Assembly: GCF_000223905.1 (NCBI RefSeq)
Contig: NC_015948.1
Span: forward strand, 2,294,001 to 2,358,000
Direction of reading: 5' to 3'
Source: Haloarcula hispanica ATCC 33960
Lineage (GTDB): Archaea > Halobacteriota > Halobacteria > Halobacteriales > Haloarculaceae
Length of the DNA: 64,000 nt
Part shown: one piece after another, positions 12,977 to 53,809 of the stretch
Layout of the letters: the number at the start of each line of letters is the position of its first letter
How positions within the stretch are numbered: position 1 is the stretch's first letter
Translations under genes and position numbers: made by a program
Notes under the pieces: generated by a model
The model's input: the letters and a program-made list of their open reading frames with translations, nothing else
Databases searched by the model: none
What the model was told of the DNA's origin: nothing

Positions 12977-13942
12977 ATGAGTGAACACACACGGACGCGA
13001 CAGCAACACGAGGAACAGACGACTGAGTCGACGGAATCGGAGAGCACTGCGTGCCCGGAGTGCAGTGGCTCGCTCGTCATCGACGACGAACACGGCGAAA
13101 CGGTCTGTGAGGACTGTGGCCTCGTCGTCGAGTCCGACGAAATCGACCGCGGCCCCGAGTGGCGCGCATTCGACTCCAGCGAGAAAGACGAGAAGTCCCG
13201 CGTCGGCGCACCGACGACGAACATGATGCACGACAAGGGCCTCTCGACGAACATTGACTGGCGCGACAAGGACGCCTACGGCAACTCCCTCTCTGGCAAA
13301 CAACGCCAGAAGATGCAGCGTCTCCGCAAGTGGAACGAGCGGTTCCGCACTCGCGACTCCAAGGAGCGCAACCTCAAGCAGGCCCTCGGTGAAATCGACC
13401 GTATGGCCTCCGCGCTCGGACTGCCAGAAAACGTCCGCGAGACGGCCAGCGTCATCTACCGCCGCGCGCTGGACGAGGACCTGCTCCCCGGCCGCTCCAT
13501 CGAGGGCGTCTCGACGGCCTCCGTCTACGCCGCCGCCCGACAGGCTGGCGTCCCACGCTCGCTCGACGAGATTACGGAGGTCTCCCGCGTCGAGAAGAGC
13601 GAAATCGCCCGGACCTACCGCTACGTCGTCCGCGAACTCTCGCTCGAAGTCCGCCCCGCGGACCCCGAGAGCTACGTCCCGCGGTTTGCCTCCTCGCTGG
13701 AACTGTCTGACGAGGCCGAACACCGCGCCCGCCAGCTCCTCCAGAACGCCAAGGAACAGGGCGTCCACTCCGGCAAGTCCCCGGTCGGCCTCGCCGCCGC
13801 CGCAGTGTACGCGGCCGCCCTGCTGACCAACGAGAAGACGACCCAGGCTGCCGTCTCCGAGGTCGCCGACATCTCCGAGGTCACCATCCGCAACCGCTAC
13901 CACGAACTGCTGGAAGCCGAGCAGGACCTCCCCGTCGCGTAA
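12977..13942 (+). CDS. tfb: Transcription initiation factor IIB (TFB)
   Basis: 321 residues. The zinc ribbon uses Cys26, Cys29, Cys44 and Cys47 (CPECSGS and CEDCG), followed by the B-reader/linker region (WRAFDSSEKDEKSRVGAPTT) and two cyclin-like repeats (about residues 125-210 and 220-310) that bind TBP and the BRE. TFB recruits RNA polymerase to TATA promoters. Haloarchaea carry several TFB paralogues; which one this is cannot be told here. The 256-nt upstream gap holds a TATA-like TGTTTTAATG near 12885, giving a leader of roughly 60 nt. Confidence 0.96.
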   Translation: MSEHTRTRQQHEEQTTESTESESTACPECSGSLVIDDEHGETVCEDCGLVVESDEIDRGPEWRAFDSSEKDEKSRVGAPTTNMMHDKGLSTNIDWRDKDAYGNSLSGKQRQKMQRLRKWNERFRTRDSKERNLKQALGEIDRMASALGLPENVRETASVIYRRALDEDLLPGRSIEGVSTASVYAAARQAGVPRSLDEITEVSRVEKSEIARTYRYVVRELSLEVRPADPESYVPRFASSLELSDEAEHRARQLLQNAKEQGVHSGKSPVGLAAAAVYAAALLTNEKTTQAAVSEVADISEVTIRNRYHELLEAEQDLPVA

Positions 13943-14027
13943 GCTCGGTATTTGCGTTGGATCGCTGTGAGAATCAGTTTTTGATTGATGTTTCAAGCGG
14001 AGTATTTGCTACTGCAGCGGACAGTCT

Positions 14028-14151
14028 GAACAGCCAGAAAGCCCCGGCCGGCTGAACTCGGGGGACTCGCTGTGGTCCTCGCTCGCCATGCTCACTGCGG
14101 TCCTTACTTCGTCCGCCTTCGTTCAGCCGCCCGCCCCTTTCAGTCCCACCC
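14028..14151 (-). repeat. Hairpin repeat element, copy 1 (minus orientation)
   Basis: On the minus strand the element starts with GGGTGGGACTGAAAGGGG (14151-14134) and ends with GGGGCTTTCTGGCTGTT (14045-14029). Between them, imperfect 13-bp inverted arms (14045-14057 with 14121-14133, one mismatch) enclose a variable loop. It faces copy 2 across 24 nt. The stretch 13943-14393 has no credible gene apart from these two elements. Confidence 0.75.
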
Positions 14152-14175
14152 GATGTCAGATGGCCAATCAGCTAC

Positions 14176-14288
14176 GGGTGGGAGTGAAAGGGGCCGACCC
14201 GCTCCGGGAACCTCAGCGATGTAAGCACCTACTGGAGCGCAACGAGCCGGGGGACCGAAGCGGGTCGGGAGCTTTCTGGCTGTTTTCG
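14176..14288 (+). repeat. Hairpin repeat element, copy 2 (plus orientation)
   Basis: It starts with GGGTGGGAGTGAAAGGGG (14176-14193) and ends with GGGAGCTTTCTGGCTGTTTT (about 14267-14286). Perfect 10-bp arms CCGACCCGCT (14194-14203) and AGCGGGTCGG (14259-14268) would fold into a hairpin with a loop of about 55 nt. The flanks match copy 1 and the 53.7-kb locus, while the stem sequence differs, so structure is kept while sequence varies. Confidence 0.75.
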
Positions 14289-14393
14289 GACGGTATTTCA
14301 AAATAAGGCACGGCCACCACAGAGCGACACACATCAACGACTCCCCCGACCGATAACCGCAAGACTAGAGTCGTCTCATCTGCTGGGACCGGT

Positions 14394-15422
14394 ATGGAGA
14401 CGACACACCGGGTTCGAACCGGTGACGCCCGTACGCTTGAGTGTCCCGACGACAGCGTCGAATTGGTGGTCACGTCCCCTCCGTACCCGATGATCGAGAT
14501 GTGGGACGACATCTTCGCGGACCTGGACCCCGACATCGGGGCGGCGCTGGACCGCGGCGACGGTGACCGAGCGTTCACACTGATGCACGACGTGCTCGAT
14601 GCGGTCTGGGCAGAGCTGAAACGCGTGCTGGTTCCCGGCGGCATCGCCTGCATCAACGTCGGGGACGCGACGCGGTCCCTGGAGGACGGCTTCCGCTCCT
14701 ACCCCAACCACGCCGAAATAACCAACCGGCTGACCGACCACGGCCTGCGCGCGCTGCCGGATATCCTGTGGCGCAAACCGACCAACAGCGGCGCGAAGTT
14801 CATGGGCTCGGGGATGGTGCCGCCGAACGCCTATCCGACCCTGGAACACGAGCACATCCTCGTGTTCCGCAACGGGGAGCGCCGCCGCCTCGAACCCGGC
14901 GCGGACCGTCGCTACGAGAGCGCCTATTTTTGGGAGGAACGCAACGAGTGGTTCTCCGACCTCTGGGAACTGCCCGGCGAGACGCAGGGCATCGACGACG
15001 GGCTCCGGGACCGCTCGGGTGCCTTCCCGCTGACCGTGCCATACCGGCTCATCTCGATGTTCTCGGTGTACGGTGACACCGTACTCGACCCGTTCCTCGG
15101 GACCGGGACGACGACGCTGGCAGCGATGGTCACCGGCCGGAACTCGGTCGGAGTGGACCGCGACCCGGACCTGCTGTCGGCGCTCGAAGACCGGGTCGCG
15201 GCCGCCCCGGAACGCTCTCGGACCATCGCTCAGGAGCGCCTCGCCGACCACCGCTCGTGGGTGGAACAACGGCGTGCCGACGGGAAAGAGCCGGGCTACG
15301 AGGCCGAACAGTACGACTTCGCGGTCAATACGAAACAGGAGCAACGGATTCAGTTCTACGCGGTCGACTCCGTCACGACGACCGATGACGGCTTCCGGAC
15401 CGCCCACGAGCCGGTCGAGTAA
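14394..15422 (+). CDS. zim: Orphan DNA methyltransferase, N4-cytosine/TSPPY class (Zim/CTAG type)
   Basis: 342 residues. The catalytic motif TSPPY (residues 27-31) comes before the SAM-binding motif DPFLGTGTT (about 232-240), the permuted order of beta-class amino-methyltransferases; SPPY is usual for N4-cytosine or N6-adenine enzymes. Size, order and the absence of a restriction gene nearby match the conserved haloarchaeal CTAG methylase Zim; that specificity is inferred from family resemblance. A segment GAKFMGSGMVPPNAYPTLEH follows the catalytic part. The gene stands alone between the hairpin repeats and aroD. Confidence 0.85.
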   Translation: METTHRVRTGDARTLECPDDSVELVVTSPPYPMIEMWDDIFADLDPDIGAALDRGDGDRAFTLMHDVLDAVWAELKRVLVPGGIACINVGDATRSLEDGFRSYPNHAEITNRLTDHGLRALPDILWRKPTNSGAKFMGSGMVPPNAYPTLEHEHILVFRNGERRRLEPGADRRYESAYFWEERNEWFSDLWELPGETQGIDDGLRDRSGAFPLTVPYRLISMFSVYGDTVLDPFLGTGTTTLAAMVTGRNSVGVDRDPDLLSALEDRVAAAPERSRTIAQERLADHRSWVEQRRADGKEPGYEAEQYDFAVNTKQEQRIQFYAVDSVTTTDDGFRTAHEPVE

Positions 15423-27557: not shown

Positions 27558-27853
27558 ATACGACTGGTTGGCCCGCGTTGGTTTAGCGTTTGTTCCACTA
27601 TGTGGCCACGATGAGTAACCGTCTTGTCGCCAGCGGCGGTAGCATCTGCCGGCCGATGACGACGACTCACGGGGCCGAACCGGGGTGACTCCCCAGTGGT
27701 GACGAGCCCTATGAGTGCCGAGGCCGCTATTTTTGACGGTAGAAGTTGTCTCTGGGGCAGTCTGGTTGTGGCCACAGTAGACATAGGCCCCGGTCAGGGC
27801 TGCGCCGGACTGGCAGACGCGGATTTATGAACGGTGCCGAGCAAACGTATAGT

Positions 27854-53651: not shown

Positions 53652-53809
53652 GAACAGCCAGAAAGCCCGTTGGACAATCCAGGCTGGGTGGGACTGAAAG
53701 GGGCGAGGCGCTGGGCTACTACGACTCGCTGCGCCCTTCGCTCACTGCGTTCGCTCCAGTGCTTGCGTCGCCTCGTACGCCCAGCGCCTCGGGGCTTTCA
53801 GGCTCTTTG
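53652..53809 (+). repeat. Hairpin repeat element, second locus (complete copy plus terminal fragment)
   Basis: A reverse-oriented terminal fragment GAACAGCCAGAAAGCCC (53652-53668) is followed by a complete plus-oriented element: GGGTGGGACTGAAAGGGG (53686-53703), perfect 13-bp arms CGAGGCGCTGGGC (53704-53716) and GCCCAGCGCCTCG (53779-53791), and a diverged end GGGGCTTTCAGGCTCTTT. The flanks match the 14-kb elements; the stem sequence is different. No gene lies in 53576-53838. Confidence 0.75.

Follow-up and report, generated by a model that had tools for sequence, protein, structure and literature searches.

The window analysed here is a stretch of 64,000 nucleotides from Haloarcula hispanica ATCC 33960, the genome of which is made up of three replicons. 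Between the genes for a transcription factor B (12977–13942, PF00382) and a DNA methylase (14394–15422, PF01555) it carries a pair of elements (14029–14284), consisting of two hairpins of about 115 nt arranged head to head. Read on its own strand, each half runs from GGGTGGGACT-GAAAG-GGG-C to GGGG-CTTTC-TGGCTGTT, and between the two a variable arm and its complement flank a loop region. The left half (14029–14151, minus strand) contains a head, P1, a GGG/GGG loop, the 13-bp P2, internal helices, P2′ and a tail, and is matched by our covariance model, R1, with 132.9 bits (E 2.1e-26); the right half (14176–14284, plus strand) scores 89.0 bits (E 7e-17). The left head, GGGTGGGACTGAAAGGGGC (14133–14151, minus strand), is an exact match and the right head, GGGTGGGAGTGAAAGGGGC (14176–14194, plus strand), has one mismatch. 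At the outer ends, the left tail, GGGGCTTTCTGGCTGTT (14029–14045, minus strand), is an inverted repeat of the right tail, GGAGCTTTCTGGCTGTT (14268–14284, plus strand, one mismatch), and the two heads are separated by a spacer of 24 nt (14152–14175) for which the family consensus is palindromic and GTAGCCGGTTGGCCAACCGGCTAC-like. An inverted-repeat search found the heads to be complementary over 20 nt at 95% and the tails over 17 nt at 94%.

A third copy lies at 53653–53807 on the plus strand, with an inverted outer tail (53653–53669), a left side that is half-deleted, a head (53686–53704), a body and a tail (53791–53807). Its hairpin (53686–53807) matches R1 on both strands, with 73.2 bits on the minus and 55.6 bits on the plus strand, because the body lies inverted between the arms of its stem. 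A similar case is found at locus L239, where the internal body is flipped between the stem arms and the model again matches both strands. When allowing up to three mismatches, the 17-nt head core occurs three times in the window compared to 0.17 expected. Of the 148 family genomes, 93 contain the head with no more than one mismatch, in up to 158 copies, and none contains the reversed control pattern; on the basis of these two counts chance is excluded for the window elements.

From outside in, the fold consists of an invariant clamp GAAAG/CTTTC, a GGG/GGG internal loop, the 13-bp P2, a loop GAA/GA, P3 with a conserved C.C or A.C mismatch, a loop GA/A, P4, a loop AA/RCA, P5 and a variable terminal hairpin, the whole ranging from 109 to 190 nt in length. 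By folding energy alone the two halves stand out only modestly (z = −1.35 for the left and −2.33 for the right half), and the case for the fold therefore rests on covariation. For P2 we considered 173 elements for which head and tail were the sole selection criteria; their arms pair at 91.1% overall, compared to 53.9% with shuffled partners. Arm positions 19–31 pair in 87–99% of these elements, and positions 20–31 in 87–97%, with an abrupt drop at position 32 (29%). For the inner helices we aligned 33 diverse elements by sequence only (alignment A1) and tested covariation without a structure; the top corrected signals reach 61, compared to a shuffled maximum of 21, and nearly all are nested Watson–Crick pairs. 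In A1, 96.9% of cells pair and 23 of 32 pairs change on both sides, with a covariation score of 0.599 against 0.170 ± 0.012 for shuffled alignments and at most 0.084 for slid structures. The corresponding values for 138 distinct copies found by the model (A3) are 97.1%, 27 of 32, and 0.602 against 0.159 ± 0.006. Since P2 pairing played a part in the choice of the A1 members and the model was used to align A3, the unbiased support for the fold is the arm pairing in the 173 elements for P2 and the structure-free covariation in A1 for P3–P6. A conserved multi-helix fold is thus strongly supported by covariation, as would be expected of a structured non-coding RNA.

The original prediction, made from sequence alone, was that two elements with common ends lie in opposite orientation across 24 nt, that their arms differ in letters and still pair, and that this reflects selection on structure, either of a transcribed RNA or of a mobile hairpin. 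The first part held, with heads, tails and spacer all found where it had placed them, and the second held and proved general in the elements selected by head and tail only. The third is supported by covarying stems together with conserved flanks in many copies, which was the check it had proposed. Copies without paired arms, which would have refuted it, did not turn up.

The mismatches within P2 show which strand carries the fold. Read on the strand of the G-rich head, G.T outnumbers A.C in the P2 arm by 103 to 20, and by 50 to 13 when only one stem per cluster is counted (112 clustered stems), the detection being symmetric for the two kinds. The excess peaks at the innermost two pairs; when the count is restricted to the outer ten, it is 24 to 12 (p 0.065). 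Across all helices the counts are 152 and 35, with the caveat that the RNA model is itself biased to G.U. Either a cruciform in double-stranded DNA or template switching would predict equal numbers, and the excess therefore means that it is the fold of the G-rich-head strand that is maintained, though the data do not distinguish RNA from single-stranded DNA. There is no TATA-like enrichment upstream of the head, and thus no promoter of its own was detected for the head strand. One candidate, TTCAGATA...TATCTGAA in a single MAG subfamily, is symmetric at both ends and was rejected as being more like terminal repeats. Among 131 copies identified independently of the head sequence, the G tracts are conserved. 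We also considered a G-quadruplex (GGG-N-GGG-ACT-GAAAG-GGG...GGG), which remains speculation, with about one tenth of heads having just two Gs in the second tract.

With R1, 203 of 245 Halobacteriales genomes, representing 65 of 74 genera, are found to carry the element; since at most 14 candidates were scored per genome, the counts obtained with R1 are lower bounds. No genome outside the order matched in a phylum-wide sample, in which all 39 positive genomes lie within Halobacteriales. Carriers include Halobaculum, Haloparvum, Haladaptatus, Natrinema, Natronococcus, Halorussus and Haloglomus. The H. hispanica genome has 21 head matches with up to three mismatches, of which about 19 are genuine as judged by tail or arms, and several form head-to-head pairs with heads 42–44 nt apart. 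Well-assembled members of one genus range from 1 to 79 heads (at most one mismatch), and the maximum of 158 comes from a partial genome of the family, making more than 150 copies in one genome possible. This spread implies that gains or losses are frequent. A viral or plasmid origin was rejected, as the head was not found in IMG/VR contigs or phage records and matches few haloarchaeal plasmids. The repeat family is large, apparently undescribed and present in most haloarchaea. Some copies on the second replicon and in relatives (L019, L020, L121, L195 and L216) share an upstream sequence of about 100 nt and have a different body with a ACGCCGCTGGCG stem, constituting a separate subfamily.

The element is confined to intergenic regions: among 111 copies placed on gene maps from a self-trained gene caller, none overlaps a gene at a coding density of 77%. 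The tail side faces a gene start in 70 cases compared to 41 for the opposite (p 0.008), at a median distance of 107 nt, and between tandem genes the sense direction is not significantly favoured (25 to 17, p 0.28). Spacers measure 22–27 nt in 74 of 84 pairs. In 57 of the 84, a C-type stem is joined to a G-type stem, and paired stems differ more than random, sharing the first base at a rate of 0.23 compared to 0.44 expected, possibly as if identical halves were unstable or useless.

Outside the tails lie linkers of 27–87 nt that end in CTAG, a tetranucleotide enriched about 11-fold at 20–90 nt from the tail. It is found on both sides in 30 of 118 units, which is above independence (odds ratio 3.6, p 0.001), and stands in one triplet phase in 84 of 98 linkers. 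From the tail to the in-phase stop (C-TAG, C-TGA or C-TAA), purine, any base and pyrimidine recur in the linker with a three-base rhythm that ceases exactly at that stop; each third base is a pyrimidine at 78% in the CTAG class, and the rhythm is also present in separate data sets. Protein coding through the linker was rejected, as the three codon positions diverge equally in nine pairs of orthologous linkers and a premature stop occurs in one linker. The right linker of the window pair (14285–14368, plus strand) runs to a CTAG at 14365–14368 in the triplet phase common to most family members; an in-phase TAA occurs earlier, and the assignment is weak. The rhythm, for which we have no explanation, can be seen in this linker and at L022, L025, L120 and L213. 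In a subfamily from MAG QS_9_67_17 (L074, L081, L092, L094, L098 and L119) CTAG is replaced by outer ends TGTTCAGATA ... TATCTGAA(C)A, which are like terminal inverted repeats.

The two CTAGs could represent a 4-bp target duplication; this remains only a possibility, as none of the sites compared was a clean empty one with a single CTAG. The insertion sequence IS870 is reported to require a CTAG target to form the stop codon of its open reading frame (title cited in PMC6471742), which suggests descent from a CTAG-targeting transposon. The orphan methylase at 14394–15422 (PF01555) may belong to the haloarchaeal CTAG methylase family (HVO_0794 type, PMC6471742). If so, a CTAG methylase adjoins a CTAG-bounded element.

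Comparison between species shows that the units are remodelled in place. For instance, the unit at site S8 is inverted in the sister species G007, with 323 nt matching at 99.1% on the opposite strand and unchanged flanks. Between G000:C3:2446875-2447203 (L025) and L343 in G007, the whole head-to-head unit is reversed in place at 99% identity with the same flanks. Other units are stable: S5 has one difference in 337 nt and S10 is identical over 137 nt in G007, with flanks that differ by 4–10%. S2 and S6 appear to be inverted and exchanged relative to G007, on weaker similarity. In genomes G029 and G030, S5 is a remnant that has lost its hairpin between two AG dinucleotides, and S6 is missing from both and from G037, possibly by deletion. 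The L254 site is filled in five species with differing contents, apparently in opposite order in G027 and G031, and is empty in G015 and G016; the empty versions of L252 in relatives (G012 and G017) lack a junction CTAG. The comparisons thus show that units are inverted in place, lose a half, have their bodies replaced and are present or absent at a given site. Single hairpins in Haloarcula look mostly like pairs minus one half. Some sites are filled in five species with flanking genes that are approximately 10–20% divergent, which suggests long vertical retention. As inversion, loss of a half and flipping of the body would follow naturally from inverted repeats, no dedicated recombinase need be invoked.

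Searches for known families were negative. The best Rfam match in 13900–14420 is at 16 bits, which is chance level, with no family above its gathering threshold, and a known RNA was thus rejected. The sole Rfam match in the whole window is the C/D-box RNA sR-tMet at 27651–27725 (RF02163, 72.5 bits). The open-access papers that we searched describe neither the sequence nor the repeat; subscription papers were not covered. A match to a known non-coding RNA or transposon would have counted against the original prediction, and none was found in Rfam or with the one published PATE compared (below). Its statement that no described family could be named agrees with the absence of the element from Rfam and from the literature searched, and the spread is far wider than it could have shown. 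The entire multi-helix fold of about 120 nt, the favoured strand, and the inversions and body swaps between species go beyond it.

REP, BIME and REPIN hairpins are read on one strand, have conserved sequence 5′ of the hairpin foot and frequently form head-to-head pairs of two types. Like the haloarchaeal elements they are extragenic, have many copies and occur as inverted pairs, and the C-type and G-type mixture described above is a further likeness. However, the REP/REPIN palindrome is 20–40 nt, whereas the haloarchaeal hairpin is three to five times longer and has several covarying helices. In addition, the RAYT transposase (Y1 HUH) expected for such a system is missing from many copy-rich genomes: a search for Y1_Tnp (PF01797, IS200-type) gave no candidates in G015 (24 heads), and G089 (158 heads) and G146 (43 heads) were not among the matching genomes. 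With no tie to copy number, a Y1/REP transposase acting in trans was rejected, and by Y1 content the element is not a REP/RAYT system.

A second comparison is with the PATEs of Haloquadratum and Halorubrum, which are transposase-free and have near-terminal palindromes, outside which lie 20–50 bp of heterogeneous sequence and then a terminal oligonucleotide that is conserved, with core deletions between repeats (PMC3119063, PMC10544981). The haloarchaeal element also has no internal transposase gene, the 256-nt window unit having no room for one, and its heterogeneous linker followed by CTAG resembles the anatomy described in PMC3119063; deletions between repeats are a further likeness. PATE palindromes, however, derive from IS605-type ends, whereas the hairpins here are mutually inverted and have an RNA-grade fold. 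With filters off, R1 gave at most 7.2 bits against the PATE region of virus HRTV-DL1 (one PATE compared, and none from Haloquadratum), so that the element is not the PATE of HRTV-DL1. MITEs of CTAG-targeting insertion sequences (e.g. IS870, PMC6471742) likewise have CTAG at each outer end, with C-TAG in phase, but no related transposon was identified for the hairpin repeat and its linkers are unlike in every copy. Integron attC sites are recombining sites with a conserved single-strand fold, variable stem letters and one preferred strand. They resemble the element in these respects, purely as a works-like analogy: no integrase or cassette array is known for the haloarchaeal repeat, and its conserved boxes and internal loops differ. 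We thus regard the element as an interspersed hairpin repeat of the REP/BIME or PATE kind with a much richer fold, apparently undescribed.

Our main reading is a non-autonomous, CTAG-associated, intergenic mobile hairpin repeat of Halobacteriales that is partly vertically retained, to which we assign a probability of roughly 0.46, little different from the toss of a coin. In this reading the unit would be built around the palindromic spacer, from which head, body, tail, linker and CTAG follow outwards on one side and head′, body′, tail′, linker and CTAG on the other, with each half forming a long, imperfect hairpin on the strand of its own G-rich head. The invariant parts (the GGG-Y-GGG-ACT head, the GAAAG/CTTTC clamp, the GGG/GGG loop and the purine-rich internal loops) would be recognised in trans by a protein of the host or of a transposon, which we infer to read the single-stranded fold, and the helices would be required just as helices, allowing their letters to drift by compensated steps. 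Copies would spread by transposition into CTAG, the flanking CTAGs being the inferred target duplication, and inversion and half loss would arise from the inverted repeats themselves. Against this reading, so elaborate a covarying fold with conserved internal loops exceeds the usual needs of transposon ends. No transposase or reader protein was found, the transposase search having covered Y1_Tnp.

The main rival, against which we lean slightly, is a functional structured RNA: the head strand would be transcribed and its fold of about 115 nt bound by an RNA-binding protein, and would protect mRNA ends, form a processing site or act in regulation. Transcription is inferred, without expression data, and would probably come by read-through from neighbouring genes because no promoter of its own is seen; the pair would then provide one half in sense for either direction of transcription. 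In favour are the covariation in every internal helix together with the conserved internal loops, the G.U-type pairs outnumbering A.C on one strand, the tail side facing gene starts, and the two units that are near-identical between sister species within more divergent flanks. However, there is no TATA-like enrichment upstream of the head, the sense preference between tandem genes is not significant, and zero to more than 150 copies at species-specific positions would be unusual in RNA genes. The mobile-repeat and structured-RNA readings could both hold.

Less well supported is a DNA-architecture or insulator site, that is, an extruded cruciform or protein-bound palindrome in intergenic double-stranded DNA. 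The palindromic spacer, the strict intergenic position and the frequent location between promoters speak for it, but a cruciform uses both strands equally, which the excess of G.T over A.C contradicts, many copies are single hairpins and some close relatives have almost no copies; we consider it unlikely. A bolder reading, also improbable, is a new class of element that joins a hairpin read in its single-stranded state to a linker of strict three-base steps ending in CTAG. The linker would consist of R-N-Y repeats, stop-free in phase and variable in letters and length, and its reader would be a triplet-stepping agent, e.g. a ribosome on a sequence-free open frame or a RadA-type filament. If this were true, hairpin, linker and CTAG would form one recombining or translated machine unlike known repeats. 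Finally, the inversions and half deletions are evidence that inverted arms interact, but the view that template switching (quasi-palindrome correction) keeps the arms alike without selection, with covariation as a mutational by-product, is very unlikely given that correction would not favour G.T over A.C, conserve internal loops and an exact 13-bp length, or maintain the fold over 65 genera.

A multi-copy fold that spans an order, shows tRNA-grade covariation and is described neither in Rfam nor in the papers searched would rank among the most abundant structured elements of haloarchaea. It lies upstream of genes in model organisms such as H. hispanica and remodels intergenic regions by in-place inversion and half loss. 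With it, a genetic system is at hand in which to study how cells recognise single-strand structure and why CTAG, which is rare in haloarchaeal genomes, stays beside the element.

Two further repeats were seen in association with the family. A second module, GAGTCGG(C/T)TGGGGAGG..GTGTGGCTG..GCGGT, lies upstream of the head at L037, L071, L080, L090, L174 and others. It is found ahead of many single elements (22 of 178), often stands behind another long hairpin with a variable stem, and is possibly a second hairpin family. In addition, the interiors of L021, L028, L033 and L036 contain small perfect hairpins with 3-nt loops (e.g. CGGGAGACC-TTC-GGTCTCCCG) at varied insertion points, which resemble a nested miniature repeat.
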